IMG/VR virus record: IMGVR_UViG_3300021351_000053
Coordinates: 1-35,664 of that record
DNA length: 35,664 bases
Reading direction: 5' to 3' (one strand)
Origin: a virus
Shown here: positions 6,559 to 35,389 of the stretch, piece after piece
Numbering within the stretch: the first letter of the stretch is position 1
Layout: every line of letters begins with the position of its first letter
Program-made: the position numbers and the translations under genes
Notes under the pieces: generated by a model
The model's database searches: none
The model's input: the letters and a program-made list of their open reading frames with translations, nothing else
Told to the model about the DNA's origin: nothing

Positions 6559-9500
6559 TCACATGGGAGGAGAAGCAGCAGACCGGAAGGCCCCGCGAAT
6601 GTCCATCATGAGGCCCCCTAGCTCCTTCAAGCGTCGGGTAGTATCTCGGCTTTCTCTGAGAACTTTTGAAAGCTTATCATTGGCCTTTCTTTCGGCCTGT
6701 TTTGAGCCGTCGAAACCTCTGCGCCAGTCCTGTTTTGAAACCGATGTCATGAGCTTTGACAAGCGTACATCAAGGTCTCCCTTGAGAATGGCATCACGTT
6801 GATCCTCGGGACTCATTCCCTCCATTCTCATTTTTTCTATATCAGCTTCCCTTTTGCCCTTGTCCATATCTTCCTGGCTCTTCTCTTTCATCACAGCCGC
6901 CGCTTCATCCTCGCTGAACTTGTAGAGATGCATCAAAACCCACCTGGTTCCCACGTCCTCTTTCATCCGAGACGCAAGATCCGCTGTGGCACTCATTACC
7001 TCCACCCGCGCCAATTCCAGAATTTGACTCGGAACATTCATCCTGATGTCATAATCCGCCTTGGCATTCATCCCCTTGGCTATCAAATGGATTCGACTGG
7101 CTTGACGATAACCACTCCTGATTACCCGCTGAATTCTCATTATCGTTCGAGCAAACCTAATGTCCTCGCTCGATAAGGCGTTTCTGGTGCTCTCCCCACC
7201 ATACCCCATGTATGTCTTGGGAATTTTGATGGAACTGACCAGCTTGTCCCTGTGGTATTCCAGGGTATCCGTTTCTGAGTAGTCTGGGCCACTGATAACA
7301 TCGATCTCTGTTGTTCTTTTACCCCCGCGCACGGGCACGAAGAAATCCTCATCCATCGAGTTGCGAACAAAGACGCCTGACCCATAAATTGTCTTTTTAT
7401 TTCCATCTCTTGCGAGTAATGCAAAATTATGATGCTTGCTCACTGTCATACAGTATTGATCTTGATTCTTTACCTTCCTAACCGAAACAACCTTATGATT
7501 ATTGGGCTCAACCAAAACATTTTCTTTGAATGCTATAAAATTTTCAAAACCAAGGAATCGATACATCTTGAGCAACATATGGCGATGAACTTTTTTTACA
7601 TTTCTATTTCGCTTTCCACCATGCTCTCTGAGAGTCTCAACCAAATGCTCATTCACACCCCTAACAATATCTTCTGCACCAGCTTTCGGGTTCTCTCGGA
7701 TCAAAGCCTTGACTCCAGAAATGAACTCTTCTGGAAAAACAAGCTTCATCCTCTTTTTTGCTTTTCGAGCCCTTTCCGGATCAGCCCACATCTCAGCTTT
7801 CAATTGACTCCTAACAATATTGTCTTCTTTGTGTTTTTCTGAATTGTTATATTCAATAATATGCTTCTTGGTGTTGTGTAGCCGATTCAGAATTGACGTT
7901 CTTTTTCTCTTCTCATCACTCTTGTTGTAAGCCGTTATGGATTTGGAATGAACATCAAAATGCCTTTTTGCATGCTCAAAATTACTCAATACTTCTAAAT
8001 TAACAGGCTCATTATTTCGCTTGTTTTCATCCTTATGATGAGTCACCCACTGACCATTAATACCCTCAGCCAATGTTCGAGCCATCACACGATGAGAAAA
8101 CTCTTTTCTTTTTACAACAGGATTATAGACAAGCTCGTATCCATCAAGCGACTTACTAGCACTAATGCTCCTGTAAAGAGGCATCACACTGTCGCCAGGC
8201 TTCAAATCTTCAGCATTGGCATAAGTTGTATCCCGGCGCATCACAGGATGATCAGGGGCCATTTCAGCCCAATTGCCGTCATCAAAAGTCACCCTTACTG
8301 TTTCTGCATTCTCCCTCGTTTTACCAACCCACTCAACTTCACCAGGAGTAACGCCCCCCGTCTCATGGTCTATCGAATAAACCCAATGTTTTTTTCCTTT
8401 GTCATACTCTTTCGCCATTTGCTCGATAGTGATATCCCTGCCATCCAATAATGGAATCGGTGTGCTTGCGGCCACAGGAAGCGGATTAAAACGCATGTCC
8501 AACTTGCCGTCCGGTTTTACAAACTTTTGGCGAGTGAAGGAGTTCTTGACCTTGTTGACAAAAGCCAGCCCCCGCTCGGCATCAAGCTCACCCACATCGA
8601 TATAAAAGGCATATCGAGCAGGAGCCCTCTCCAGCTTGTAGATCAAGAGAGCATCTTCCAAAAGAGCCAATCTCTTCCAAATCCACCTGGCCGGATCGAT
8701 GACTGCGCCTCCATAAACCGACCTAAGATGCTTGCCCCTGAGCCTCCAATGAACCAGCTCCCAGTCCTCAAAGACCGTCAGCTCTCCAGGGTTGCGCCCC
8801 ATTGCGGCTGGGACCTTCGCCCCCTCCTTGCCACTTCGATACGCCTGCTGCGCACTGGCCAAAGCATAGAAATCTTCCAAAGAGAGATTGAACTCACCCC
8901 TGATGTCCTGAATGAAACCAATGAGCTGCCCCCTGGGTCCTTCGACCCTCCTGACCGTCGGCGGAGGGAGATAACTGAGCCCCACGAGCCCTTGATCAGT
9001 GACTAGAGCCTCCCCATAGACGTTCCCGTATTTGCAGAGGGTTCGCACCACGCCCCAGATGTCGTCCTCAATCAGAAGCTGCTTATGGAGCATATGATTC
9101 AGCTCATCAGCAATCTTCTTGTCTTCGGAGGTCGCCCAGATGGCCTGTTCACGGTCGAGGTCTGGGCTGGTCGCATCATCGGCGTAGATATCGAGCCCAC
9201 AATTATGAACAAAAACCGACCCTCCATTTGAAGTCCCAACCGCAAAATTACGATATCCAGGAACCTCCAAATCAAATACCTCTTCATCACCTACATACTC
9301 AACAGAAACAACACGATGATTTAAATATTCACTATCACCAAGCTTTGGACCATTGAGGTTTGAACCAAGAATTTCCTGGTCCAATCCATACTGAGCCATT
9401 CTTCTGGCCAAAGTGTTCCAAGATACCTTCAATTTCCGAGCTGCCTCACTCACAGATAAAGACGCACGAAGAGAAGCCTCAACAACATCCGGAGCCAAAG

Positions 9501-10545
9501 GAATTCCACTCTTCTTATAACGTCCTTTTTTGCTACTCAACTCTTTGGTCAACCATGATGAACCTTTCTCATCATGAAATCGCTTTTGCCCATCCAAAAT
9601 TCTTTTGCGACTCTCAATATCTTGCCACTGACCCTTAACAGCTTTCGATATCTTACTCCTACGAACTTCCTCGTATTCTCCACGCTGGTGATGATTGATA
9701 TGTCCTTTTCTCGTCATTATTTCGAGGTTGCTTGGCCTTGGGTTCGCCTTGTTCTCATCCCTATGATGGACGCACTCTCCACGCTCTAACAACCTTCCTC
9801 GCATCGCCTGAGCCACAAGACGATGAGTATCTGTGTATAAACACCCACCACTTTGTGTTTTTTGCAATGGCTCATAAATAGAATGATACCCACTCTTTCT
9901 TATTTTGAAGGTACAAGGCATCAACCTGTCATTTGGCTTTAAATCCTCAACGGGCTTGTACTCACCATTTCGCATCATAAATAAATGGTCACCTGTTGCC
10001 TTGATAGACCATTTTTTCGTGCGCCTGAAATCCTGATAAGTCACCTTATATACAGGTTTTACGCCTTTTGGTATGGGTCCTTTCGCCTTCGCAACAACCA
10101 CTTTTCCTGATTTGTGATCAAAAGCATAGACAAGCAATTCCTTATACTTGCCCTCTTCATAGTCCTTCGCCAATTCCCCTATGGTTTTACTATTTACCTT
10201 GACAATGCTCATGTCATCTTCTATATTAGCTCTACCCGCAGAGTCAACATAAAATACCGACATATCAGCAGAAATACAGGATACTTCGGGATATTCATCC
10301 ATCTCTTCATAGTCAGCGAAGCGTTGCTGGAGGTCTTGGTCGATCCTGAGATAATTGGCCAGCGCATCATAGCCGAATTGATTTACCAAATTATAAGGAA
10401 GCCCCGCCATCGAAACCGCCGGGGTACCACCACGTTGAAGCTCTGCCGCTTGCCTTTGAGGGGTTCTTGCGAAAAACGACCGCAGGGCATTACCCACGTT
10501 GGCCGTGAAACCCTCCCAAAGCCGTCTACTTCCTACTTCTGCCAT
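6559..10545 (-). CDS. Portal protein, T4 gp20-like, interrupted by two inteins
   Basis: A 1328-residue precursor; removing inteins at residues 90-448 and 690-1062 leaves about 596 residues, comparable to T4 gp20 (524). Portal features in the exteins include DEYPEVS joining to CGLDIYADDAT, VVRTLCKYGNVYGEALV, WELVHWRLRGKHLRSVYGGAVIDPAR, and after intein 2 SMDEDFFVPVRGGKRTTEID with YHRDKLVSSIKIPKTYMG. This order matches T4-type portals. The protein forms the dodecameric DNA channel and head vertex that docks the terminase. Its ATG overlaps the TAA of the terminase gene (TAATG). The C-terminal 150 residues are charged and helical. Both inteins must be excised for a continuous portal fold. Confidence 0.9.
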   Translation of the reverse strand: MAEVGSRRLWEGFTANVGNALRSFFARTPQRQAAELQRGGTPAVSMAGLPYNLVNQFGYDALANYLRIDQDLQQRFADYEEMDEYPEVSCISADMSVFYVDSAGRANIEDDMSIVKVNSKTIGELAKDYEEGKYKELLVYAFDHKSGKVVVAKAKGPIPKGVKPVYKVTYQDFRRTKKWSIKATGDHLFMMRNGEYKPVEDLKPNDRLMPCTFKIRKSGYHSIYEPLQKTQSGGCLYTDTHRLVAQAMRGRLLERGECVHHRDENKANPRPSNLEIMTRKGHINHHQRGEYEEVRRSKISKAVKGQWQDIESRKRILDGQKRFHDEKGSSWLTKELSSKKGRYKKSGIPLAPDVVEASLRASLSVSEAARKLKVSWNTLARRMAQYGLDQEILGSNLNGPKLGDSEYLNHRVVSVEYVGDEEVFDLEVPGYRNFAVGTSNGGSVFVHNCGLDIYADDATSPDLDREQAIWATSEDKKIADELNHMLHKQLLIEDDIWGVVRTLCKYGNVYGEALVTDQGLVGLSYLPPPTVRRVEGPRGQLIGFIQDIRGEFNLSLEDFYALASAQQAYRSGKEGAKVPAAMGRNPGELTVFEDWELVHWRLRGKHLRSVYGGAVIDPARWIWKRLALLEDALLIYKLERAPARYAFYIDVGELDAERGLAFVNKVKNSFTRQKFVKPDGKLDMRFNPLPVAASTPIPLLDGRDITIEQMAKEYDKGKKHWVYSIDHETGGVTPGEVEWVGKTRENAETVRVTFDDGNWAEMAPDHPVMRRDTTYANAEDLKPGDSVMPLYRSISASKSLDGYELVYNPVVKRKEFSHRVMARTLAEGINGQWVTHHKDENKRNNEPVNLEVLSNFEHAKRHFDVHSKSITAYNKSDEKRKRTSILNRLHNTKKHIIEYNNSEKHKEDNIVRSQLKAEMWADPERARKAKKRMKLVFPEEFISGVKALIRENPKAGAEDIVRGVNEHLVETLREHGGKRNRNVKKVHRHMLLKMYRFLGFENFIAFKENVLVEPNNHKVVSVRKVKNQDQYCMTVSKHHNFALLARDGNKKTIYGSGVFVRNSMDEDFFVPVRGGKRTTEIDVISGPDYSETDTLEYHRDKLVSSIKIPKTYMGYGGESTRNALSSEDIRFARTIMRIQRVIRSGYRQASRIHLIAKGMNAKADYDIRMNVPSQILELARVEVMSATADLASRMKEDVGTRWVLMHLYKFSEDEAAAVMKEKSQEDMDKGKREADIEKMRMEGMSPEDQRDAILKGDLDVRLSKLMTSVSKQDWRRGFDGSKQAERKANDKLSKVLRESRDTTRRLKELGGLMMDIRGAFRSAASPPM
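7360..8478 (-). mobile_element. Intein 2 of portal (Pro1, class-3-like, HNH)
   Basis: Residues 690-1062 of the precursor (373 aa). The block A pattern aligns as PVAASTPIPLLDG with Pro at position 1 instead of Cys or Ser. Block B reads APDHP, so the usual Thr is Ala. Block F has Tyr-Cys-Met where Tyr-Asp-Leu is usual (Cys1032), and the end is VRN followed by Ser, so the penultimate His is Arg. Splicing would join FNPL to SMDEDFF. An HNH endonuclease domain is visible at about 833-862 (VTHHKDENK, then NLEVLSN and HAKRH). Pro1 plus block F Cys is known from class 3 inteins such as the mycobacteriophage Bethlehem DnaB intein. The Trp and Thr of their WCT motif are not evident here. Confidence 0.8.
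9202..10278 (-). mobile_element. Intein 1 of portal (HNH type)
   Basis: Residues 90-448 of the portal precursor (359 aa). It starts CISADMSV and ends VFVHN, with Cys449 as the first downstream residue, so it has standard Cys1, His-Asn and Cys+1 chemistry. Block B is ATGDHLFM and block F is VFDLEVPGYRNFAV. The homing domain is HNH (CVHHRDENKANPR, then NLEIMTRKGHINHH at about 258-286). A helix-turn-helix module (SVSEAARKLKVSWNTLARRM, about 364-383) may help target DNA. Its HNH region resembles that of portal intein 2, so the two are probably related. Confidence 0.9.
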
Positions 10546-13500
10546 TATCCCCTCGTGAAGGGCATCGGCATATTTTTCGCCGAAACCTTTTGACCAACCA
10601 TACCTTGTCGACCCCCTCTCTGACCAGACGAGGGAGGAACCATTACTTTACCACCTGTCACCCAGGAATCGTCTCTCACTTCGGTCATTGAATTCCTGCC
10701 AGAGGTCAATGGTGCCATTGGAAGCCCTGGTTGACGAGTCATCAGACTGTGAACTCCACCCGCCAAGCTATCTGCTAGATCTTTTTCTCCCCTAGCCGGA
10801 TGGTCAATCATGAATTTTGGAATAACACCCTTGGTTTTTTGCACCCTCTGAAGGGCTCGAAGCTGTCGCTGAATCGTTACATTGTCCTGAAGTCTCAGCC
10901 GATTCTCGTAAAGAGCGATTTTTAGAGATTCATAAGGAACCGTTGTTTTATCCACTGACAACACATCAGACTCAATTCCTCTGGTTTTGAATTGCTGCCT
11001 AGTGTCAGCACTTTGAAAACTGTCCATCGAAGCGTAGCTAATCTGAAACCCATGTGACAAAAACTCATAGATAATGCCCCGGATATCCCCCAGAAAAATC
11101 TCATCCCCTGGAGGAGGAATGATTTTCAGCATAAAGTCCGTTTCAATGACAGGAGCGACCTCTTCGTAAGACTCCCCACCAGCATCACGCCTGGTGACTT
11201 CCGTATGTCCTGCAATGTGAAGGATCGTGAGGCCAGCACAGTCACCCGATAACGAAGGGTCAATATGAGCATATCGAACCGCCCCTGGATGTCGAATGGG
11301 TCGCCAAGCTTCCTCAGTGAAGCCACCAGGAATAGCCCTCTTATATGGAATTGCTACCCTCTCCCACCAAAACTCTAAGGGATCACCACTCATCCACTCT
11401 TCTACATCAACAGGGCTCTTCAATGTCTCATCAATAGCCTCTGCGATTTTTTCCCTGCGATGGATAAATAAACTAACACTCTCGGTCGCAATTCCCGCAA
11501 TATCCCTGAGAGCACCCTCTAAATCAGCATCGAAATCAGGGAAATATTCCTCTGGTACATCAATGATCCGAAGCTGTGACTGTTTATACCACTCAATATC
11601 TTCTGGGGATGGCTTTATCTTTGAACGAACGGTTTCATTACCAACAGCAATCTGAAAAGTTTTTCCACTAAAATTATCAACGGGCTTCACGCTCCAAGTG
11701 CTGTAATCCCTCAAGAAAACATCAGGAGATTGTCCTGATCGGGCTTCTTCTATTTTCTGCTCAATGAAGGTTACAGGCTTCTCTTTGGAGCTGACCAAGA
11801 ACATCAACCCTGGAAGTTTTCCAGCCTTCATGAATCGAGATTTCATCCTTCGAATAATGGCCTTGGTCAAAACCTCGCTCTTATCGACCTCTACCAGCCG
11901 CCCTGTTTTGTCGAGTTGACGCCTGCCACCCATGAATGAATTATGAACAACCACACCTTCTGCAATAAAATTGCCATGTGGTGAAGACATTATGTCAAAA
12001 GTTTCACAGCTTCCCGAACTTGTAATTGAGACAACCCTGGCCAAATATCCCTTTCGTCCCAAACTTTGAAGGTCCACCCCTTTATCCTGCAAAAGATGCG
12101 ACAAGCCTCGAATTTCGCCTTGTTCTTCCCGCTGTAACAAAACCCCTTGGGCTTTACCTCTATAATCTCCACCGACCCGTCTATCTTCTCTATTCTGAAA
12201 TCTGGGATTGTCGAATACATCACACCGTCGAATTCGAATGGTATTCTCAATGGCTCGTACTCGAAGCTCAAAATTGTCTTGTCGTTGTCGAATATCCCTA
12301 TAACATGCTTCTCCCACAGCGACCTGTAAGCACATTTTCCTGCCTTTTTCGTGCTGACATATCCCATAGGAGGCCATTCCTTCGAGGACATGATCTCGCT
12401 GAGTTTCTGCCTTGTTTTCCTTGAATGTTTGAAATTCCTTGTTTTGTTTCTTTCGGAAAGGTTTCGTTTGAAATCTTCTGTGTGCCTGAAAGAACGCTTT
12501 ACCTTGTCCATCTTCGTCCTGTATTCTGGGTCTTTCCACCGTTCCTTCAATCTCTCTGACTGTTTCTCCCTCTCTTCTTCTGTCCACCCCTTCCGCTCTT
12601 TTGGCGGACGCATTCTCGCCCTTTCCCTGTCCACATGCTCCTTCAATTTCTCGTCTGGCACACCATTGACATCTATCCCTTGCTTTATAGCTTTCGTTCT
12701 GATGTTCGACAGCTTTATCTTTTGCTTTGTTTCCTCGGACCTCTTCCTTTTTTTCACACCTGTCTTCGTCTTTGACATTTTCTCTCTGGACTCTTTGGTG
12801 TGCTTTTTTCCAAAAAACGGATTTTTCCTGCCCCGATGATTTCTCGACATCAACAATCACCACCTCGTCACCAATCCTGAGATCCGCGACCCTAACGTAC
12901 CCCTGCCCTTTCACCAGAAATGGATGCTTTGATGTGGCCCTGATAACTGTGCCGTTATCCAATTCAACACTATAAACAAAAGTATCTGTCGCTCTTTTTA
13001 TCGTACCAATCGAAGGCACAACATCCCCAGTGCGCTCTATATATGCCATAATAGGAGTAATAGTCCCATCATGTTTATATAAATCATAAATTTCCTTATA
13101 CCCTTGGGAGGTTAGGATTCTTGTATCACCAGACAGGCACATCTCGTCCAGAAAACCACTAAAAACGTTCGTCCCGATTGCCGCGCTGGATGTTGACCCC
13201 GCTACCACAATTATTTTTTTGGTAGGAAAACGAATTTCATACATTGTTTGAGCGATTTTATAGGGGCACTTCTCTTTGAAGTATGGGCTAAGTTGAAGCT
13301 TTGACCCCAACTCAGCAAGGGGAACTCTTCTGGCCGCCTCCCTTGTAGCTGAAAGAATAGCAACAGCCAGCGCCGTTCCTTTGGCTAATCCATACACTCT
13401 CTGGGGTTCTGCCAGGCATGAAATTTGATATAAAATGTAAGCAAGTCCACATGTTGCGAAGAAACTATTGTGAACAACGATTCCATTGATAACTGCATTT

Positions 13501-15026
13501 TGAGTCTCAGGCACACTCAGGTCATAAACATCATGGATTCCAATGTCCGTGACCGATTCCACCCGCTCCCAAACAATGTCGTCCACCATGTCCGCAAATT
13601 TTCGATACCTGCCTTTGTACCCTGTGGCCTCACACAATCGCTTGAAACGCTGGGCACCCATACATGAGCCATCAGCCATGGCAGCAAGCTTTCTCCATTG
13701 CTTGTTGTTATGCGGCCCTGTCTCCTTGCGAATCTCCTTCAATTCCCTGTTGGTAATAGGCACCACATCCCAGTTTGAATTAGGCTTTTCAACCGCCCTG
13801 GCCTGAAATATCAAACGAGAACATGCCCCCTCCTTGCCAGGGATAAATCCCACATGTTCCATAAATAAGAGCTGATTGGGAACATCAGCTATCTGAAGAC
13901 GCCAAGCATCAAACTCCCCATCTTGATTCTTTTTCCTCCGATAGCTCTTTCTCGCTGCAACACCAAATCGCCTGAGAAGATACTGAATGTCATCAATCAA
14001 TCCCTCAGACGCCAGCGTGATTTCAATCTTTCTCGGAGAACCCGTGTAAACATTCCCATCAGTAAAAAGCCACCTGAGAAACAAAGAAAGCTGTTCATCA
14101 CACAGCCCAAAATACTCACCAGGCACACGCTTCTTTTTTGACAAACATCGAATCCCAAGTTTCTCGGTCCAATCTTGAAGCCCACTCAAAAAAACAGAAG
14201 GTTTCCTTTTGTCTTTTCTCCAAGCACTAAATCCCTGAATAGAATGCGCTCGTTTAACAATCTCATCCCGTAATACAACATTACCCTTGGTATAACTTGT
14301 AATAGTCCGCTCGGTCATGCCACCGTCAGCTATCAACGCCGCCGCAACAATCACCTCATCATCAGTCACTTTCAAAGGACTCAATGGAGCAGGAACCCGC
14401 CTTGCCACCGCAACAAAATCACCCTTGCTAAGCTCCCCTATTGGCTTATACCCATTTGGGCACAACACAGGATGATCAAGACTCACCTCCAGCCAATGCC
14501 CAGAAACAAGAGTCATTTTTGAGCATCTCTTTTGACCAGACTTCCAAACCTTGCTTGACCGCCTATGAGAGACTTTATTTCTACCATCTAAAGAAGGGAC
14601 CAAAGGAGTCAAACCAACAGCTTGACTTATCTTGAATCTTCTGCCAGATTCACCATCTACAAAATAGGAGTTTTCGGTTCCACATTTCCCCCATCCGAGC
14701 GAACCAGTCAAAATTGCTTCAGAATATCCTCCCTCAAACAGTTCAACAAAATCATCCTGAAGCTTGGGCCACATATTCGAGCCCACAGCCCCTAGATAAT
14801 ACTCATCAAGCAAAAAGGTTCGTGGAGAAACAGGCTCCTCAACATATTCAATATTGATGAACTCATCGAGCACATCATTTTGACCCTGCTCCAGCTTGTC
14901 GAGGTAATGAATAAATGCGGCTTGTTCGTCGGGGCTCATTGCCTCCAACGAATCAACCATGTCTTTGACGATTTCTTCCTCAGTCCGGACGGACCTCGGC
15001 CTTCCACCAATAATCTCGATAGCCAT
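10545..15026 (-). CDS. Terminase large subunit, gp17-like, interrupted by two inteins
   Basis: A 1493-residue precursor; removing inteins at 115-520 and 630-1029 leaves 687 residues, close to T4 gp17 (610). The Walker A box is GSLGWGK|SFFAT with intein 1 between Lys114 and Ser521. The Walker B box is FSGFLDEM|SFM with intein 2 directly after the DEM. The C-terminal part has RNase H-like nuclease signatures: YAHIDPSLSGDCAG, ISYASMDSF and the final EKDLADSLAGG. The ATPase half powers DNA translocation into the prohead and the nuclease half cuts concatemers. The ATG overlaps the TGA of the upstream gene (TGATG), and the stop overlaps the portal start. Without splicing neither ATP-site motif is intact. 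Confidence 0.93.
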   Translation of the reverse strand: MAIEIIGGRPRSVRTEEEIVKDMVDSLEAMSPDEQAAFIHYLDKLEQGQNDVLDEFINIEYVEEPVSPRTFLLDEYYLGAVGSNMWPKLQDDFVELFEGGYSEAILTGSLGWGKCGTENSYFVDGESGRRFKISQAVGLTPLVPSLDGRNKVSHRRSSKVWKSGQKRCSKMTLVSGHWLEVSLDHPVLCPNGYKPIGELSKGDFVAVARRVPAPLSPLKVTDDEVIVAAALIADGGMTERTITSYTKGNVVLRDEIVKRAHSIQGFSAWRKDKRKPSVFLSGLQDWTEKLGIRCLSKKKRVPGEYFGLCDEQLSLFLRWLFTDGNVYTGSPRKIEITLASEGLIDDIQYLLRRFGVAARKSYRRKKNQDGEFDAWRLQIADVPNQLLFMEHVGFIPGKEGACSRLIFQARAVEKPNSNWDVVPITNRELKEIRKETGPHNNKQWRKLAAMADGSCMGAQRFKRLCEATGYKGRYRKFADMVDDIVWERVESVTDIGIHDVYDLSVPETQNAVINGIVVHNSFFATCGLAYILYQISCLAEPQRVYGLAKGTALAVAILSATREAARRVPLAELGSKLQLSPYFKEKCPYKIAQTMYEIRFPTKKIIVVAGSTSSAAIGTNVFSGFLDEMCLSGDTRILTSQGYKEIYDLYKHDGTITPIMAYIERTGDVVPSIGTIKRATDTFVYSVELDNGTVIRATSKHPFLVKGQGYVRVADLRIGDEVVIVDVEKSSGQEKSVFWKKAHQRVQRENVKDEDRCEKKEEVRGNKAKDKAVEHQNESYKARDRCQWCARREIEGACGQGKGENASAKRAEGVDRRREGETVREIEGTVERPRIQDEDGQGKAFFQAHRRFQTKPFRKKQNKEFQTFKENKAETQRDHVLEGMASYGICQHEKGRKMCLQVAVGEACYRDIRQRQDNFELRVRAIENTIRIRRCDVFDNPRFQNREDRRVGGDYRGKAQGVLLQREEQGEIRGLSHLLQDKGVDLQSLGRKGYLARVVSITSSGSCETFDIMSSPHGNFIAEGVVVHNSFMGGRRQLDKTGRLVEVDKSEVLTKAIIRRMKSRFMKAGKLPGLMFLVSSKEKPVTFIEQKIEEARSGQSPDVFLRDYSTWSVKPVDNFSGKTFQIAVGNETVRSKIKPSPEDIEWYKQSQLRIIDVPEEYFPDFDADLEGALRDIAGIATESVSLFIHRREKIAEAIDETLKSPVDVEEWMSGDPLEFWWERVAIPYKRAIPGGFTEEAWRPIRHPGAVRYAHIDPSLSGDCAGLTILHIAGHTEVTRRDAGGESYEEVAPVIETDFMLKIIPPPGDEIFLGDIRGIIYEFLSHGFQISYASMDSFQSADTRQQFKTRGIESDVLSVDKTTVPYESLKIALYENRLRLQDNVTIQRQLRALQRVQKTKGVIPKFMIDHPARGEKDLADSLAGGVHSLMTRQPGLPMAPLTSGRNSMTEVRDDSWVTGGKVMVPPSSGQRGGRQGMVGQKVSAKNMPMPFTRG
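11940..13139 (-). mobile_element. Intein 2 of terminase (Walker B site), with a gene in another frame inside
   Basis: Residues 630-1029 of the terminase precursor (400 aa). It starts CLSGDTRI and ends EGVVVHN with Ser+1; block B is ATSKHPFL, and block F is ETFDIMSSPHGNFIA, so the splicing parts are standard. The middle, residues about 726-1000, shows no endonuclease motif in this frame and looks like arbitrary highly charged sequence (KKEEVRGNKAKDK and similar). The same bases in the +1 frame encode a coherent PD-(D/E)XK endonuclease, listed separately. The intein frame nevertheless stays open throughout, as splicing needs. Confidence 0.9.
11990..12850 (-). CDS. Homing endonuclease in +1 frame inside terminase intein 2
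   Basis: A 286-residue protein from ATG 12850 (in-frame TTG codons at 12856 and 12853 precede it), read one base downstream of the terminase frame. GGTGA lies six bases before the ATG. Residues 4-50 hold NUMOD3-like DNA-binding repeats (GRKNPFFGKKHTKESREKMS, then RSEETKQKIKLSN); related repeats recur to about 155. Residues 175-235 look like a restriction-fold nuclease: SLWE with Glu180, IPDF with Asp217, and IIEVKPKG with Glu231 and Lys233, a PD-(D/E)XK site. It ends at TAA 11992-11990, inside the bases encoding intein block F, so both frames are functional there. It probably cuts intein-free terminase alleles. The out-of-frame arrangement is highly unusual. Confidence 0.8.
   Translation of the reverse strand: MSRNHRGRKNPFFGKKHTKESREKMSKTKTGVKKRKRSEETKQKIKLSNIRTKAIKQGIDVNGVPDEKLKEHVDRERARMRPPKERKGWTEEEREKQSERLKERWKDPEYRTKMDKVKRSFRHTEDFKRNLSERNKTRNFKHSRKTRQKLSEIMSSKEWPPMGYVSTKKAGKCAYRSLWEKHVIGIFDNDKTILSFEYEPLRIPFEFDGVMYSTIPDFRIEKIDGSVEIIEVKPKGFCYSGKNKAKFEACRIFCRIKGWTFKVWDERDIWPGLSQLQVREAVKLLT
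13467..14684 (-). mobile_element. Intein 1 of terminase (Walker A site, LAGLIDADG)
   Basis: Residues 115-520 of the precursor (406 aa), inserted between the Lys and Ser of Walker A. It starts CGTENSYFVDGESG and ends GIVVHN with Ser+1. Block B is SLDHPVL and block F is VYDLSVPETQNAVI. Two LAGLIDADG helices are visible: VIVAAALIADGG (about 226-236) and LSLFLRWLFTDGNV (about 313-326). Its endonuclease part (EITLASEGLIDDIQYLL, RRFGV, AWRLQI) resembles the helicase intein 1 endonuclease, which sits at the equivalent P-loop site. Confidence 0.92.
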
Positions 15027-21308: not shown

Positions 21309-21665
21309 CTAATAACCCGGCTTCCTTTTTGATGCCCTGCTTTGATCTGCTGCCTTTGGTTCCTTGGAACCGCCGTCACGGACTTCCATGACCTCGGTTT
21401 CACACCTCTGCTCGACCCACCTCTTCGCGAACTCGTCAGCCGCGTCAATGTCTTCGACATAGCAAGGCAGTTCCAGGGTCACGTCAAACCTGGCCGATTC
21501 AAAGTTACCAAGGTTCATCGTAAGCCCATAACCACGCCTCACACGGGCCACAGGGCCTTTGAAGTCGTGGGTGAAAACCACCTCTTCCTTTGCATCTGTT
21601 TTGTAATCCTCACCCTTATGAGAAAAACGCCCATCAATAAAGGCGATTGCTACTTCTTCAGCCAT
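21309..21665 (-). CDS. Small conserved-looking protein beside recA
   Basis: A 118-residue protein whose core reads GLTMNLGNFESARFDVTLELPCYVEDI followed by a helix AADEFAKRWVEQRCE, an alpha/beta arrangement. The last 25 residues are basic and flexible. ATG 21665 has an excellent GGAGGAG site and lies just downstream of a strong promoter. Its position directly before the recombinase suggests a recombination accessory role, but no motif proves it. Confidence 0.65.
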   Translation of the reverse strand: MAEEVAIAFIDGRFSHKGEDYKTDAKEEVVFTHDFKGPVARVRRGYGLTMNLGNFESARFDVTLELPCYVEDIDAADEFAKRWVEQRCETEVMEVRDGGSKEPKAADQSRASKRKPGY

Positions 21666-27618: not shown

Positions 27619-30600
27619 TTAGTAAACTAGATCGTGGCCCTTGTCGTCAAATTCATCATCATCATCAACATCACTGACAACAGAGGTTCCTATTTCATCG
27701 AAATTCATCTCGTCCATGTCCCATCGAGAGACCACAGCAGACCACACAGCCTGCCTCCTGGCCTTCAGAGGGACGAACAGCATCTGCTTGTCCAACTTCA
27801 TGTCATCATCTTGGTAAAGAGCAAAGAGATTATGGCAATTATGGACAACCAATCCATGGCAAAGGAACCGATGGTCATTATGTTCAACAGTCAGGTCCCA
27901 CATTTCGCTCATCCCAACATCACGCACCGCCCTGATTTGCTCCAAAGCAAAATTATGATGTTCCGGAGCCTCAACCATTGAGACATAACGCCCGCTCGAT
28001 GGCGGAGCGTCCAAGAGCTGACTGGTTTTCCTCACCGACAAGAGACCAATTGTTTCCATCCAATGCCTGGTCCCCCTGCGACCAAGCCACACCTTTGTCA
28101 CCCCGTCATAACAACGTATTTTCGGAGAAAACCCAGCCATCCTCAGTAATTCTCCAACGCCCATGCCCAAGGGTCGAGAAGCCGTTGTCAAAAACATCTG
28201 CCCCGCACTCGTGATATGGCCATCAGCGCACAGCAAGCCCCGAACAAATGCCAACCGACAAGCATGGGGGGCAGACCAAAGACGCTCAGGAACGATTTTT
28301 TCTTTGGAAAGGTGAGACGGAACACCAAGCCACCTCAAATACCGGACCAACCCAACAGAACATGCCTCCACAACATCACACGTTTTTGCCCCAGGCGTCC
28401 CCTTGATCTTATGCGCAGCATCAATGCCAAAAAGTGCGCTAAAGGACCGGACCAACCATCTGGCAACATCAGCGTCCCTGGGGTCCACCCCTATCGGCAC
28501 CCTGTTCTCTTGCCGAACACTCCCATTGCCAATGATGTAACCCAATAACTCAGCCAGCTCTTCGCTCCACAAATCTGGGTATTTGACATCACCCTCATTG
28601 GAATGCTGTCTTCGTGAATCAAACCCAGCCAAAGCCTGACTGCCACCATGGAAGTCCCTTTGAATAAATACCCAGTCCCCAGGCATTAACTTCTCAGAAC
28701 GAACCCACTGGGGAACCATCCCGCCAGCAAGAGCCCACACCTTGTGCTCTGGACTCATACGAACAGCAAAGCCACTGTCCAATTCAACCGAAAGAGTGTT
28801 TTTCTGCCCTGAAGGCCAAGACTTCGCCGGGGCCACCGTGTCACCAATGGCAATTTCACCACCACCTGAAAGACTCTCAATAGGAACAGCTCCAGATGGC
28901 GTGTAGACCAGCGAACCTTCAGGCACACAATCTTGATAAAGTGTATCTGAGAAAGCCAAAGCATCTTCGAGGCCACCGGTTCCGAGACCTTTTTTCAAAG
29001 TCTCCTTGGCGCTCTTTTTCACCTTGGCTGTACGGGCAAGCTGGCTTATGGCACAGAAGGGTTTTTGCTTTTTCCGGGAAGTCGAACGCATCCAATCCAC
29101 TGTTGAAACCATACGCTCCTGGCGATCACCCCTGGACCCTGGACCTTTTCTTATTCCGCCCTGGGCCACCTTCAACATATAGGCTGAATCAATCCCCACC
29201 AAATCCGCTTCAGTGGCATCAATAGCCTCTTCAATAAAATCAGGCTCCAGTTTGTCTTCGTCATCTAATATGAAAAGATTCTTTGCCTCATCAGCTTTTT
29301 CTATGTCTTCGATGGTTTTGAAGAATTGAGGTTCGGCATACATTCCCAGGGTGGCAGAAACAACATCGCCGTAATTGAATCCACCGTGCTTGACGACAAA
29401 CCGCTCGGCCATCTCGACCCGGTTCATCTCCGGACTGACAAGGAGCACCTTTTTCCCCTGTTCAAACGCCGCATTCAGGCAAATAAGTACCATCGTCCAT
29501 GTATTGTGAACAATAAGATCGTTCGCAACAAAACATGACGTTGGTTGAACAGTTAAATCATAAATTTTCTGCTCCCCAACCTCTTCAATGGCAACAATTT
29601 GATCCCAAAAAATGTTTGAATCCCACCACCATTTAAATTCATCTTCCACTCCAAAAACATTGCAAAAACCACGAAAAGCAGTCATTTTTATAGAATTTCG
29701 AGGTCCAAACAAATCCCTCGTACAAAAACCAGAACGCCCTAATTTTTCCGCAACTTTTTCATGCAACCCACCTTTCCACCTTCCAGCTCCACCTTTTGAA
29801 ATCTCCTTTATTCGCTGAACCTCTTCATCTGACACCCTTGGATAGCCAATATTGGGACCACGAGCCATAGATGCACCAGCCTCAACACGCTCGGCTTTTT
29901 CACCCCACAAAGAAAAAGAATTAGAAAAATTCTTCACACACTCAGAATGAACCCTGAGACGCCAAGAATCATACTCTCTCTCTGATATCTTAGCCTTTTT
30001 ATACGAAGTAGTGGATTGAACACCAAAACGAAGCAATAATGACTGGATTTGATAAATCATTTCTTTAGATGCAAGCGTTATTTCAGGCTCGCCCCGCTTT
30101 GAAACATATCCATCACACATCCAAAAAATTGACAAAAATTTAGCCAATTGATTTTCTGGCAACGAAAAAATCTGTTCTGGAATTATCTTGTGTCGAGAAA
30201 GCTTTTTATCAATACCGAGAGAAACAAGGAATTGTCTAACAGCATTCCCTTTTGGAGAACCAATACGCCTCACAAAATCATAATCACAACCACCACGAGG
30301 CACAACATCAACACCAAATGCCTGTGCAACCTTCTGCGCCAAAACAATAATTGCCTCATCTTCTGTGCTAAAACCAACATGATTCCCAGTGCATGACCCT
30401 TGTGAAAGCAAAATAGCTAATGCAACAACATCACATTCCTTCATAGACTTTGGCTTTTCAGGATGAGGCATTTTTGACGGAGAAGCTATTGTCATCCCTC
30501 TTCTTATCTCATCAGCACGCTTCCACCCTTCAGCGGTCAAGAATGGATGTTCTGGGGTCGCAACAATTGAACGTCCTGTCCTTGTCGTTACTCGCAAACA

Positions 30601-31317
30601 ATTTTTGTACCCCGTGTCAACCTTAGCCGTTATACCCTGAACATGGACACCCTCGCCTTTTGACCAAGAAGTAACACGATCAATCGAATCATCCTCGTAA
30701 ACACTCCCGATTCTTCTTGGAACACCACTTACAGGATCAGTGATTACCGTGTCCTCATGAACACATTTTCCAACCGAGGGTCGAGCAACAAACATTGTGA
30801 GAGTTCCGGGCCACATCCCCATGGTCATCTTTGTCATGGTCTCCCAGGGAAATTGAACTCCGGTCTCTCCGCGTTTTGTTCTCTCGTAAACCCCCCGAAC
30901 TTCCGGGGCAACTTCTGCAAGTGTGTGAACTCGTCCTTTTTGAATGGACAAGCCACGGAGGTGGTCGGAGAGCTTGTGGACCTCTTCGGCTGCCTTGTCC
31001 TTGTCACCCTGTTCCAGATGCTCAAGACCCGCAGCATAACCGAATTCCAGCGCCCTGAATCTATGGCGATCAAGGAGCTGGTCCACCACCCAATCGATAG
31101 CAGTCCCTTCCTCGACCCTTTCAATGTTGACCCCTGTTTGTTCTCTAACGACAGAGGGGGGTGGGAGCTGACCATGTTCTTGATAATAATCTTGGACGAA
31201 AGACCAGGCTCTTTTTCCAGGCTTCAAAAGAAGCTCATCTTGGAGTAGTTCCCTTGCTTTTTTATACCCAGTCTCGTTTTTTGTGGCTAATCCAATTGCG
31301 GCTGCATCAAGATCCAC
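27619..31317 (-). CDS. DnaB-like replicative helicase with two inteins
   Basis: A 1232-residue precursor; removing inteins at 185-605 and 797-1160 leaves 447 residues, a usual DnaB size. RecA-fold landmarks are Walker A ARPSVGK|TWTM, KVLLVSPEMNRVEMAERF, the Walker B strand ADLVGIDSAYML and KPFCAISQLAR; GGLEDALAFSDTLYQD leads into intein 2. The tail is acidic (DVDDDDEFDDKG). GTG 31317 follows GGGGGGAG. It would unwind the fork as a hexamer, loaded by the DnaC-like protein encoded just upstream and working with the DnaG-like primase. The unspliced protein cannot bind ATP because intein 1 splits the P-loop. Confidence 0.92.
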   Translation of the reverse strand: MDLDAAAIGLATKNETGYKKARELLQDELLLKPGKRAWSFVQDYYQEHGQLPPPSVVREQTGVNIERVEEGTAIDWVVDQLLDRHRFRALEFGYAAGLEHLEQGDKDKAAEEVHKLSDHLRGLSIQKGRVHTLAEVAPEVRGVYERTKRGETGVQFPWETMTKMTMGMWPGTLTMFVARPSVGKCVHEDTVITDPVSGVPRRIGSVYEDDSIDRVTSWSKGEGVHVQGITAKVDTGYKNCLRVTTRTGRSIVATPEHPFLTAEGWKRADEIRRGMTIASPSKMPHPEKPKSMKECDVVALAILLSQGSCTGNHVGFSTEDEAIIVLAQKVAQAFGVDVVPRGGCDYDFVRRIGSPKGNAVRQFLVSLGIDKKLSRHKIIPEQIFSLPENQLAKFLSIFWMCDGYVSKRGEPEITLASKEMIYQIQSLLLRFGVQSTTSYKKAKISEREYDSWRLRVHSECVKNFSNSFSLWGEKAERVEAGASMARGPNIGYPRVSDEEVQRIKEISKGGAGRWKGGLHEKVAEKLGRSGFCTRDLFGPRNSIKMTAFRGFCNVFGVEDEFKWWWDSNIFWDQIVAIEEVGEQKIYDLTVQPTSCFVANDLIVHNTWTMVLICLNAAFEQGKKVLLVSPEMNRVEMAERFVVKHGGFNYGDVVSATLGMYAEPQFFKTIEDIEKADEAKNLFILDDEDKLEPDFIEEAIDATEADLVGIDSAYMLKVAQGGIRKGPGSRGDRQERMVSTVDWMRSTSRKKQKPFCAISQLARTAKVKKSAKETLKKGLGTGGLEDALAFSDTLYQDCVPEGSLVYTPSGAVPIESLSGGGEIAIGDTVAPAKSWPSGQKNTLSVELDSGFAVRMSPEHKVWALAGGMVPQWVRSEKLMPGDWVFIQRDFHGGSQALAGFDSRRQHSNEGDVKYPDLWSEELAELLGYIIGNGSVRQENRVPIGVDPRDADVARWLVRSFSALFGIDAAHKIKGTPGAKTCDVVEACSVGLVRYLRWLGVPSHLSKEKIVPERLWSAPHACRLAFVRGLLCADGHITSAGQMFLTTASRPLGMGVGELLRMAGFSPKIRCYDGVTKVWLGRRGTRHWMETIGLLSVRKTSQLLDAPPSSGRYVSMVEAPEHHNFALEQIRAVRDVGMSEMWDLTVEHNDHRFLCHGLVVHNCHNLFALYQDDDMKLDKQMLFVPLKARRQAVWSAVVSRWDMDEMNFDEIGTSVVSDVDDDDEFDDKGHDLVY
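27838..28929 (-). mobile_element. Intein 2 of DnaB-like helicase (LAGLIDADG)
   Basis: Residues 797-1160 of the precursor (364 aa). It starts CVPEGSLVYTPSG and ends HGLVVHN with Cys+1. Block B is MSPEHKVWAL and block F is MWDLTVEHNDHRFLC. The endonuclease helices are LAELLGYIIGNGSV (about 921-934) and RLAFVRGLLCADGHI (about 1021-1035). Extein junctions are TLYQD and CHNLFALYQD. Confidence 0.92.
29503..30765 (-). mobile_element. Intein 1 of DnaB-like helicase (Walker A site, LAGLIDADG)
   Basis: Residues 185-605 of the precursor (421 aa), between the Lys and Thr of the P-loop. It starts CVHEDTVI and ends NDLIVHN with Thr+1. Block B is ATPEHPFL; block F is IYDLTVQPTSCFVA. The second endonuclease helix is LAKFLSIFWMCDGYV; the first (VVALAILLSQGS) has lost the acidic residue, so cutting activity may be reduced. 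Segments EITLASKEMIYQIQSLLL and YDSWRLRV are shared with terminase intein 1. Confidence 0.92.
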
Positions 31318-33230: not shown

Positions 33231-33896
33231 TTACTTTGACCCAGCCATGTGGCTCAATTCTCTAAAAACATGAAAACCAGGGTCATATTTTTGTCTCGTT
33301 TTGTGAAAATGGCCAATGACACCTTTGAACGCTCTGCGCTCCTCTTTTGTTAGCGCTCTGAAGGCTATGTCTCCATTGACTTCTCTTGGAAAATCCAATG
33401 GAATCCCCAGCTCAGAACACAAAACCCTTGTAAGCGCTGCAATGCTGTCAATCTGGCAGGGAAAGAACCTGGCACACATGAGCTTTACGCCGTGGATTCG
33501 CTCCTCATCCAGGATTCGATCTTTACCCCTATTTGGGACCTTCTGTCCCTTGGTCCGAAAACCGTAGTTCGCAACCTCAATGCTGATTGAACGCCGCCCC
33601 ATTTGGCCACCAGTATCTCTTGGGTCATATTTCACAGGGTCGATAAATTGATAAATAACACCCTCTCTATCGATGCAAAAACTCACTCCAAGGTTTCGAT
33701 TGATCAGGGTATGGTAGGTTGTCTCAGCACTGTTCTCACCGCCTGTCCAGTGCCAAATAATCAGGTCAGGATGAAGCTCCCGTTCCCGCGTGTTCTTCTT
33801 GCCCACGAACGTCATCTCGTGGTGGTCCTTCCAGGTCAGCACTGGGGCTTTCACTGGAACGCTCTTCCCGTTGAGTATGATTTTGCTCGTCTTCAT
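33231..33896 (-). CDS. N-acetylmuramoyl-L-alanine amidase (endolysin)
   Basis: A 221-residue Amidase_2/PGRP-type enzyme. LIIWHWTGG supplies the first zinc His (His49), SFCIDREGVIYQFID and SISIEVANYG are core strands, and GVIGHFHKTRQKYDPG supplies the second His, the Lys and the Asp of the active site. It cuts the amide bond between MurNAc and the peptide stem to lyse the host. There is no signal peptide. ATG 33896 is directly preceded by GGAGG with almost no spacing; ATG 33815 is an alternative. The first start overlaps the upstream gene by 131 bases. Confidence 0.85.
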   Translation of the reverse strand: MKTSKIILNGKSVPVKAPVLTWKDHHEMTFVGKKNTRERELHPDLIIWHWTGGENSAETTYHTLINRNLGVSFCIDREGVIYQFIDPVKYDPRDTGGQMGRRSISIEVANYGFRTKGQKVPNRGKDRILDEERIHGVKLMCARFFPCQIDSIAALTRVLCSELGIPLDFPREVNGDIAFRALTKEERRAFKGVIGHFHKTRQKYDPGFHVFRELSHMAGSK

Positions 33897-35016
33897 CCTC
33901 CAAGTCTACACCGAGAGCTTTTTCATGTCTCTCTTTGATGCCAAGCAGCCTCGCTTTAGCTCTTTTTGACAAATGCTTGGTAGGAACAACCGGCTTCCAA
34001 AGTTTTTGACCTCTCGACTCAAATTGCTCATATTCATACCCCAACGAAAGGCAAATAGGTTCCGGGTCCACTCGGCACCCCCGAGCGCCTGGCCTACACC
34101 AAAAAGCATTGAGAGTCTCTGTCTCAGGTATTCTTGCCAAACCTCTTTCACATGCAATCCGGTCATCACAAGATGCGCTCTTGGACTCACACCGGCCTCC
34201 CCACGTCAGTGGGTAGCCCTTGAGCCATTTCGCCCTGTGGCCGGGTCTGGCAGGAGGAAGCTCTCCCTTGATGAGGTAGCGACCATCAGAGACGATTTGA
34301 CTACACCTCTGTTGGTACATTGCATCCCATTGATCCAAGGTTCCATGAAAGCCTTCTGGTGGGTCTTCACAATCAATAGTTAGATTCCTTATCCAGATAG
34401 CTCGTTTGTTTCGAGCCTTGATGAATCCAAGGGCATGTCTTTGGTGTCTTCTCAGGGCTGACAAGTAGGTTTCTCCCTCGCCCTCGATGCACTCAGTTAT
34501 CCGAGAGACCCTCTTTCTATCGCATGATCGGCTTCTGTTGTTTTTGACGACCTGCCAAATTCCCACACAGTCTTGGGTGTGCCCCCCTGATTCGGCCATG
34601 CACACGCGGAGAAAGGCCGTCAACGTTGCTTCTTCGCTTTCCTCTTCTGGGATATTCCAAAGCCTTCCCCTTGTCGCGGCTGGGCTCTCCCATTGAAACC
34701 TTCGGATTCTGCGCTTTTTTGGCGGGGGGGGCTTCGTTAGTTCCCCCATAAGCTGGCGTTGTTTCTTCCATTGTTTTTCGCGCTCATCACGTTCCCGATC
34801 AGCCTTCGCAAGAAGAACCTCTCGCTCCTTCTGCCTTTTCTCTCGCAACTCTGCCCTGGCTAGGCTCCTTTGAGCGAACAAATCCTCTATACTGGCCTGT
34901 GCCTCTTCCTCACATGTCGGAAAAGGAACAACGATTAATATAGCCAACAGCACCACAATCGTTACCAAAAACAGTCCCCTAGCCTTCGCCGACATACTCT
35001 TCCACCATGCCACCAT
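33766..35016 (-). CDS. Membrane-anchored putative peptidoglycan hydrolase
   Basis: A 416-residue protein from ATG 35016, chosen because AAGGAG lies seven bases upstream; an earlier TTG (35040) lacks this. Residues about 15-34 (LFLVTIVVLLAILIVV) form one membrane segment or signal anchor, ending in PFPTC, a possible but imperfect lipobox. A charged coiled coil (about 40-100) and Pro/Arg linker follow. Residues about 132-265 hold FLRVCMAESGGHTQDCVGIWQVVKNN, resembling lysozyme or transglycosylase folds with Glu in AESGG. Many Cys suggest disulfides outside the cytoplasm. The last 45 residues overlap the amidase gene and are low complexity. A cell-wall-degrading or spanning role beside the amidase is inferred. 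Confidence 0.55.
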   Translation of the reverse strand: MVAWWKSMSAKARGLFLVTIVVLLAILIVVPFPTCEEEAQASIEDLFAQRSLARAELREKRQKEREVLLAKADRERDEREKQWKKQRQLMGELTKPPPPKKRRIRRFQWESPAATRGRLWNIPEEESEEATLTAFLRVCMAESGGHTQDCVGIWQVVKNNRSRSCDRKRVSRITECIEGEGETYLSALRRHQRHALGFIKARNKRAIWIRNLTIDCEDPPEGFHGTLDQWDAMYQQRCSQIVSDGRYLIKGELPPARPGHRAKWLKGYPLTWGGRCESKSASCDDRIACERGLARIPETETLNAFWCRPGARGCRVDPEPICLSLGYEYEQFESRGQKLWKPVVPTKHLSKRAKARLLGIKERHEKALGVDLEDEDEQNHTQREERSSESPSADLEGPPRDDVRGQEEHAGTGASS

Positions 35017-35069
35017 CTGTGGTCTCCTTTTTGCTGCCAAGACGCATCATTTCATGTTTTCAATGAATG

Positions 35070-35098
35070 ATAATACCCTGGGCTGGTGTGATGGTCAG
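35070..35098 (-). promoter_or_regulatory. Possible promoter of lysis genes
   Basis: Minus-strand CTGACC (35098-35093), a 17-base spacer and TATTAT (35075-35070), downstream of the terminator and 54 bases before the lysis gene start. The -35 is only a partial match. Confidence 0.35.
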
Positions 35099-35132
35099 TC
35101 ACGGGGCGGCACCCTAGCACAATGATGGATTT

Positions 35133-35169
35133 AAAAAAAGCGAGCCCCCTGGCACCACCCAGGAGGCTC
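35133..35169 (-). terminator. Intrinsic terminator
   Basis: On the minus strand GAGCC and CCTGG pair with CCAGG and GGCTC (35169-35142), followed by GC and seven T (35139-35133). It is the clearest rho-independent terminator in the window and ends the putative small RNA. Confidence 0.8.
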
Positions 35170-35355
35170 TAAGACGGAGTGACCACCAGAAGGGGCCACA
35201 ATTGCCACGAGGGACATCGCTTTCGTGACAACACCCGGGGCTGTCGGAGCTGACCCGAAAAGCCCGCTAAAATCACCTGCTTTAGCTATGGCCTGTGACC
35301 GCGACCGTTGCTTACAGGCTGCCACATTTCAGCAGACTTTTCGTCCCAGCTCCTT
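35133..35355 (-). ncRNA. Putative structured small RNA, about 220 nt
   Basis: Bounded by a strong promoter (expected start near 35355) and an intrinsic terminator, with no convincing reading frame inside. The 5' end GGAGCTG (35353-35347) pairs perfectly with CAGCTCC (35252-35246) and encloses several helices: a GAC/GTC hairpin, CTGC/GCAG, CCTGT/ACAGG and GCTAAA/TTTAGC. Further 3' are GACAGC/GTTGTC with a 7-base loop, CACGA/TCGTG and GTGGCC/GGTCAC. It matches no RNA class I recognise. It could be a regulatory RNA or a packaging-type RNA; the role is unknown. Confidence 0.55.
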
Positions 35356-35361
35356 ATTGAC

Positions 35362-35389
35362 AATCTAGGAATTTGCACAAGATTGTCAA
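35362..35389 (-). promoter_or_regulatory. Promoter of the small RNA, within an inverted repeat
   Basis: Minus-strand TTGACA (35389-35384), a 16-base spacer and TAGATT (35367-35362). The element lies in a 10-bp inverted repeat (ATTGACAATC at 35356-35365, GATTGTCAAT at 35381-35390), so the plus strand also has TTGACA at 35357-35362 with AAGATT 16 bases on. It may fire in both directions or be an operator. Confidence 0.65.

Follow-up and report, generated by a model that had tools for sequence, protein, structure and literature searches.

The window analysed here, 35,664 nucleotides in all, makes up an entire IMG/VR fragment. The phage it comes from is uncultivated and has a major capsid protein of T4 type, and the main genes of the window all lie on the minus strand. 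Close to its end the same strand carries a structured RNA gene, followed by a longest frame of 424 amino acids and then by a gene for N-acetylmuramoyl-L-alanine amidase (33231-33896). The features of the locus are as follows, the four contigs being the window and three relatives described below.

35362 to 35389, minus strand: promoter, with the -35 element TTGACA at 35389-35384, a 16-nt spacer and the -10 element TAGATT at 35367-35362
35133 to 35355, minus strand: predicted transcript of about 222 nt, placed by the promoter and terminator positions and by the fold, with a putative start
35246 to 35353, minus strand: 5' domain of about 108 nt, with the stem GGAGCUGG...UCAGCUCC continued by CGAAAAGUCUGCUGAAAU/AUUUUAGCGGGCUUUUCG, which includes three G-U pairs
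35202 to 35231, minus strand: HP1, UUGUCACGA[AAGCGAUGUCCC]UCGUGGCAA, proposed from sequence, complementarity and accessibility
35179 to 35199, minus strand: HP2, GUGGCC..GGUCAC, in which the relatives have pairs altered at both partners
35170 to 35178, minus strand: unpaired linker UCCGUCUUA, a putative seed, drawn from the alignment, covariance-model matches and leader complementarity
35134 to 35169, minus strand: intrinsic terminator GAGCCUCCUGGGUGGUGCCAGGGGGCUC with U tract, its loop GUGGUG conserved in four of four members
33766 to 35040, minus strand: downstream gene, longest frame of 424 aa, conserved beside the RNA in all four contigs

The 424-aa frame belongs to no known family, lacks a homologue in cultured phages, and may truly start at an internal ATG. 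It begins about 100 nt past the RNA terminator, behind an apparent promoter of its own. Each of the four contigs has a conserved element just past the terminator (TGTGCTAGGGTG, TGTGGTAAAGTG, TGTGATAGGGTG and TGGTAGGGTG; TGTGCTAGGGTG in the window, at about 35095-35120), from which the downstream gene is probably transcribed separately. Elsewhere in the window, translations of the portal, terminase and replicative-helicase-like frames (6559-10545, 10545-15026 and 27619-31317) appear to be interrupted by intein-like insertions.

Anatomy of the RNA gene

The RNA gene promoter, TTGACA-16-TAGATT, is sigma70-like and agrees with the consensus at 10 of 12 positions. It fits a class, TTGACA-N16/17-[CT]TAG[AG]TT, that recurs upstream of genes in the window and its relatives; a single scan returned 3 promoter-like sites where 1.2 were expected and 5 terminator-like sites where 1.6 were expected. 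The terminator stem (35169 to 35142 on the minus strand) has 11 pairs, 8 of them GC, and runs into the U tract. Between promoter and terminator there is no credible reading frame. The combination of an independent promoter and an intrinsic terminator in an intergenic region, by which sRNA genes are recognised, is thus present. The promoter also sits inside a palindrome with 10-bp arms (35357-35389, TTGACAATCT-N12-AGATTGTCAA), so that an operator, or firing in the opposite direction, is possible.

The predicted folding energy of the minus-strand RNA is -104.7 kcal/mol, whereas dinucleotide shuffles give -82.4 (z -4.7, reached by 0 of 200). A plus-strand reading was dropped, its fold being weaker (-89.8 kcal/mol, z -3.6). 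The 5' domain alone reaches -53.9 kcal/mol (z -6.0), the complementary strand only -38.0, and it is on the minus strand only that the non-Watson-Crick pairs of its long stem are G-U pairs. We count four main structured units, the 5' domain, HP1, HP2 and the terminator, where the sequence-only reading had put at least seven hairpins besides the closing helix. That helix, GGAGCUG with CAGCUCC, is real, but it closes only the 5' portion of about 108 nt (35353-35246) and not the whole RNA, as had been thought. The RNA gene had also been placed apart from all protein genes; its position is indeed intergenic, though a protein gene starts only about 100 nt beyond its terminator. The strand, which had not been named, is minus. 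Two further points stood: a promoter and an intrinsic terminator do flank about 220 frameless bases, and the class, which that reading did not recognise, is an uncatalogued one. No Rfam family matched at the gathering threshold in the window or the relatives, and permissive thresholds gave implausible matches only. ARAGORN at default settings found no tRNA or tmRNA in either, and relaxed settings yielded only low-scoring noise. By these two tools the RNA matches neither 6S RNA, tmRNA, tRNA nor any other catalogued class.

Related RNAs at the same locus

Three related contigs encode the neighbouring genes of the RNA: G001 (3300033155_001653; L002/L008), G002 (3300009082_000055; L003/L010) and G005 (3300027057_000001; L009). 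At the same locus, upstream of the same gene, each carries a shorter RNA of about 70-105 nt, with a TTGACA-N16/17-TAGGTT promoter immediately 5' of it. The last 50 nt or so of these RNAs are 82-89% identical to the window; the neighbouring genes stand at about 65-76% nucleotide identity, and the flanks of the RNA do not align. All four members share a 3' module made up of HP2, the unpaired UCCGUCYUA and the terminator with its GUGGUG loop. The linker takes the form UCCGUCCUA in the relatives, where it is conserved and unpaired. HP1 with the loop UGUCCYC is common to the window and two relatives (three of four members); in those two it reads GCUGCGG[CUGUCCUC]CGCAGC, and the loop segment UGUCC(C)UC recurs in HP1 of the window. 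No counterpart of the 5' domain was found in the relatives; it is unique to the window phage, and this extra domain probably serves to stabilise the RNA.

In the alignment of the four members (A3), 98.6% of pair cells hold standard pairs and five pairs are altered on both sides, and its covariation score was reached by 0 of 500 shuffles. Homologues that destroy the pairing, which the sequence-only reading had named as evidence against itself, were therefore not what the three related contigs offered. With promoter, terminator, fold and homologues that keep both promoter and terminator, the reading of the locus as a stand-alone, uncatalogued RNA gene is supported, and the earlier observation as a whole is partly confirmed; neither the 3' module and its conservation nor the likely target had been noticed in it. 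A covariance model recovers the four members at E-values, rough ones, of 7e-15 to 2e-18, as it must by construction. What it adds is a negative result: no credible further member emerged from 436 kb of clade and outgroup sequence and seven further records. When viral contigs and bacterial genomes were scanned for the pattern, everything beyond the known relatives was a chance match, excluded by context or by the covariance model. Among cultured phages a DNA search found no homologue of the RNA and no sequence similarity in 50,697 phage records.

The relatives have another promoter 5' of the sRNA, which drives a conserved noncoding stretch of 430-800 nt (L008 6505-6990, L010 1977-2470, L009 about 7010-7640), 68-92% identical over 73-295 nt. 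The stretch opens in the manner of a minigene, with an RBS and an ORF of two codons (AUG-GAC-UAG, AUG-AGC-UAG or AUG-CCC-UGA). At L009 7100-7630 and L010 about 2440-2470 it holds several ends resembling a tRNA T-arm and acceptor with CCA, for example GTGGGTTCGAGGCCCACGGGGGCCACCA, despite which ARAGORN at default settings found no tRNA in the L009 and L010 stretches.

A recurrent leader complementary to exposed segments

A search led by the conserved linker UCCGUCCUA brought out a recurrent RBS leader, AGGACGGAGGACACCAUG (also given as GGACGGAGGACACCAUG), which precedes several phage genes in the relatives. In most cases a TTGACA-N16/17-TTAGATT promoter is no more than about ten bases away. The GGACGG of the leader is also kept where no promoter adjoins it (G005 22816, G001 28428), and at G001 6508 AGGACGG is retained although an insertion has displaced the Shine-Dalgarno sequence, which indicates that this part is not merely a piece of the latter. 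In the clade contigs, 14 of 290 starts have GGAC ahead of the RBS GGAG, and at 13 the extended leader is present; the figure is 0 of 183 starts in contigs where the RNA was not found, one of which (G003) stops short of the RNA position. G010, which shares its source metagenome with G001, contains two motif leaders and no copy of the RNA in 56 kb; it may be another part of an RNA-bearing genome.

Exposed segments of the relatives' RNAs show perfect complementarity of 8-10 nt to the leader. G002 has three such segments, the HP1 loop with the stem edge (UGUCCUCCG), HP2 (CCAUGGUG) and the linker (CUCCGUCCUA), each a perfect complement of some part of the leader; in G005 the segments are HP1 and the linker, and in G001 the linker and the terminator loop (UGGUGUCC). 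Coverage by 8-mers complementary to the leader exceeded that of dinucleotide shuffles in the three relatives (P 0.001, <0.001 and <0.001), with the reservation that the complementarity is partly unspecific, since much of the leader contains the Shine-Dalgarno core GGAGG. The segments are mostly unpaired (predicted 0.63-0.77), that in HP2 of G002 less so (0.46). Pairing of the linker with RBSs was equalled by 0 of 100 shuffles in G001, 0 of 100 in G002 and 1 of 100 in G010, for which the G001 linker was used because its 56 kb show no RNA copy; the G005 linker alone did not rise above shuffles (81 of 100). Accessibility-aware duplexes of RNA and leader came to -12.8 to -26.6 kcal/mol, versus means of roughly -4 to -13 for shuffled leaders. 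When gene starts are ranked by predicted pairing, the motif leaders take places 1-4 in G002 and places 3-6 in G001, where the complement of the RNA itself and one further gene come first. The match of linker and leader was noticed first and tested later on the same data, whereas the HP1 loop came to attention only afterwards and conformed to expectation. HP1 itself forms in the predicted duplex with the leader and is absent from the single-strand minimum-energy fold of the whole RNA.

In three relatives, then, a conserved segment predicted to be unpaired is complementary to the regions where mRNA translation begins; for the window this applies only against the relatives' leaders. The window counterparts of the complementary segments are UGUCCCUC and CUCCGUC. 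Set against the leaders of the relatives, the window RNA gave modest values, P 0.02 at k=7 and 0.08 at k=8, and its duplexes were significant with three of five leaders. Within its own 35.7 kb no gene start has the GACGGAG leader, GGAC precedes GGAG at 0 of 20, and pairing of the linker with window RBSs does not exceed shuffles (56 of 100). The best predicted target, first of 28 at -13.6, is a 118-aa gene at 21665, by sequence the orthologue of a motif-leader gene of G002, which gives no more than a weak hint. Sister contigs with AAGACGGAGGACACCATG leaders that would fit the window linker were sought and none matched, in a collection that may hold no sister contigs. The motif genes of the relatives lie mostly upstream of the RNA or elsewhere, that is, in regions outside the window's edge, and the target genes of the window phage are presumably in the unsequenced part of its genome. 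Its matching targets, and hence the same regulation, we infer from the relatives.

A candidate regulator of a phage regulon

Gene anatomy, conservation and complementarity in the relatives form the computational basis on which we lean, with some reserve, towards a phage-encoded, stand-alone antisense sRNA that acts in trans by binding the common RBS of a phage regulon. That the RNA is a genuine phage sRNA with host mRNAs or a protein for targets, its complementarity to the leader being incidental or the relic of an inverted promoter-RBS cassette, appears unlikely to us, although some points favour it. Host RNAs are the targets of many known phage sRNAs (review PMC12197685), no target stands out in the window itself, and the reverse complement of the G002 RNA resembles an RBS (TAGGACGGAGCGACCACCATGG), which would fit an origin by inversion. 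However, complementarity falls in two or three separate exposed segments and not in one inverted block, and these segments count among the RNA's best-conserved parts, with the HP1 loop and the linker belonging to different elements.

A cis-acting leader or attenuator, controlling whether transcription continues into the cell-wall/lysis and replication genes downstream, would account for a terminator that stands at most about 100 nt 5' of the next gene in four of four contigs with no coding sequence in between. We nevertheless rate it as quite unlikely, given that the conserved element behind the terminator resembles an independent promoter in all four, that no antiterminator alternative conserved across them was seen, and that a conserved unpaired linker and loops would be superfluous for an attenuator. 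It is improbable that the region is a functionless, structured intergenic stretch arisen by chance, since promoter, terminator, linker, loops and compensatory pairs are conserved at one locus in four divergent contigs. A general anti-Shine-Dalgarno RNA, one that reduces translation initiation across the board, as CCUCC in HP1 of the relatives and CUCC in the linker might suggest, is hardly credible, because the complementarity runs past the Shine-Dalgarno sequence in both directions (GGAC 5', ACA(CC) 3') and the motif leaders outrank most other starts that bear one.

If the RNA is indeed an antisense regulator of phage leaders, it would be expressed from its own promoter, and the linker and HP1 loop would pair in vivo with the leader over the Shine-Dalgarno sequence and the start region. 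Such pairing would block translation of the phage gene set jointly, repression being likelier than activation.

As far as we know, phage sRNAs described to date have either a single phage mRNA or host RNAs as targets. C4 is processed out of a transcript that also contains its one target mRNA, ant. The loop-borne complementary sequences of this antisense RNA of phages P1 and P7 are directed at a phage mRNA around its RBS (PMC12197685), and the likeness to the window RNA lies in this phage antisense design with RBS-complementary sequence in loops. In contrast to C4 and its single target, the RNA here has its own promoter and a terminator before the next gene, and the complementary leader stands before many genes; in neither the window nor the relatives did the C4 model of Rfam match at gathering level, and C4 was not among the permissive matches. 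The small RNAs sar of P22, OOP and PreS of lambda and VpdS of VP882 include some that pair near phage translation starts, and none of them, as described, recognises a repeated RBS motif of a phage gene set (PMC12197685). In the literature covered, which leaves most subscription journals outside, we found no description of a phage sRNA that reads an RBS motif common to many phage genes. A protein offers the nearest functional likeness: RegA of T4 recognises about 30 phage mRNAs where their translation begins (PMC3014915), one regulator for many phage initiation regions, whereas the regulator proposed here is an RNA. A search of the contigs for the RegA family (PF01818) gave no match, and its control likewise matched nowhere.

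For the T4-like clade we tentatively suggest, as a reading that may well hold, that one sRNA, sharing the promoter class of its targets, serves as master translational regulator of a regulon with identical RBS leaders, a counterpart of RegA in which seed and leader are maintained together. The hypothesis yields exact and cheap predictions. If true, the regulon would account for the identical RBS cassettes scattered across these genomes, and an sRNA that reads a motif of many of its own phage's RBSs would be a compact, programmable switch for a whole class of genes.
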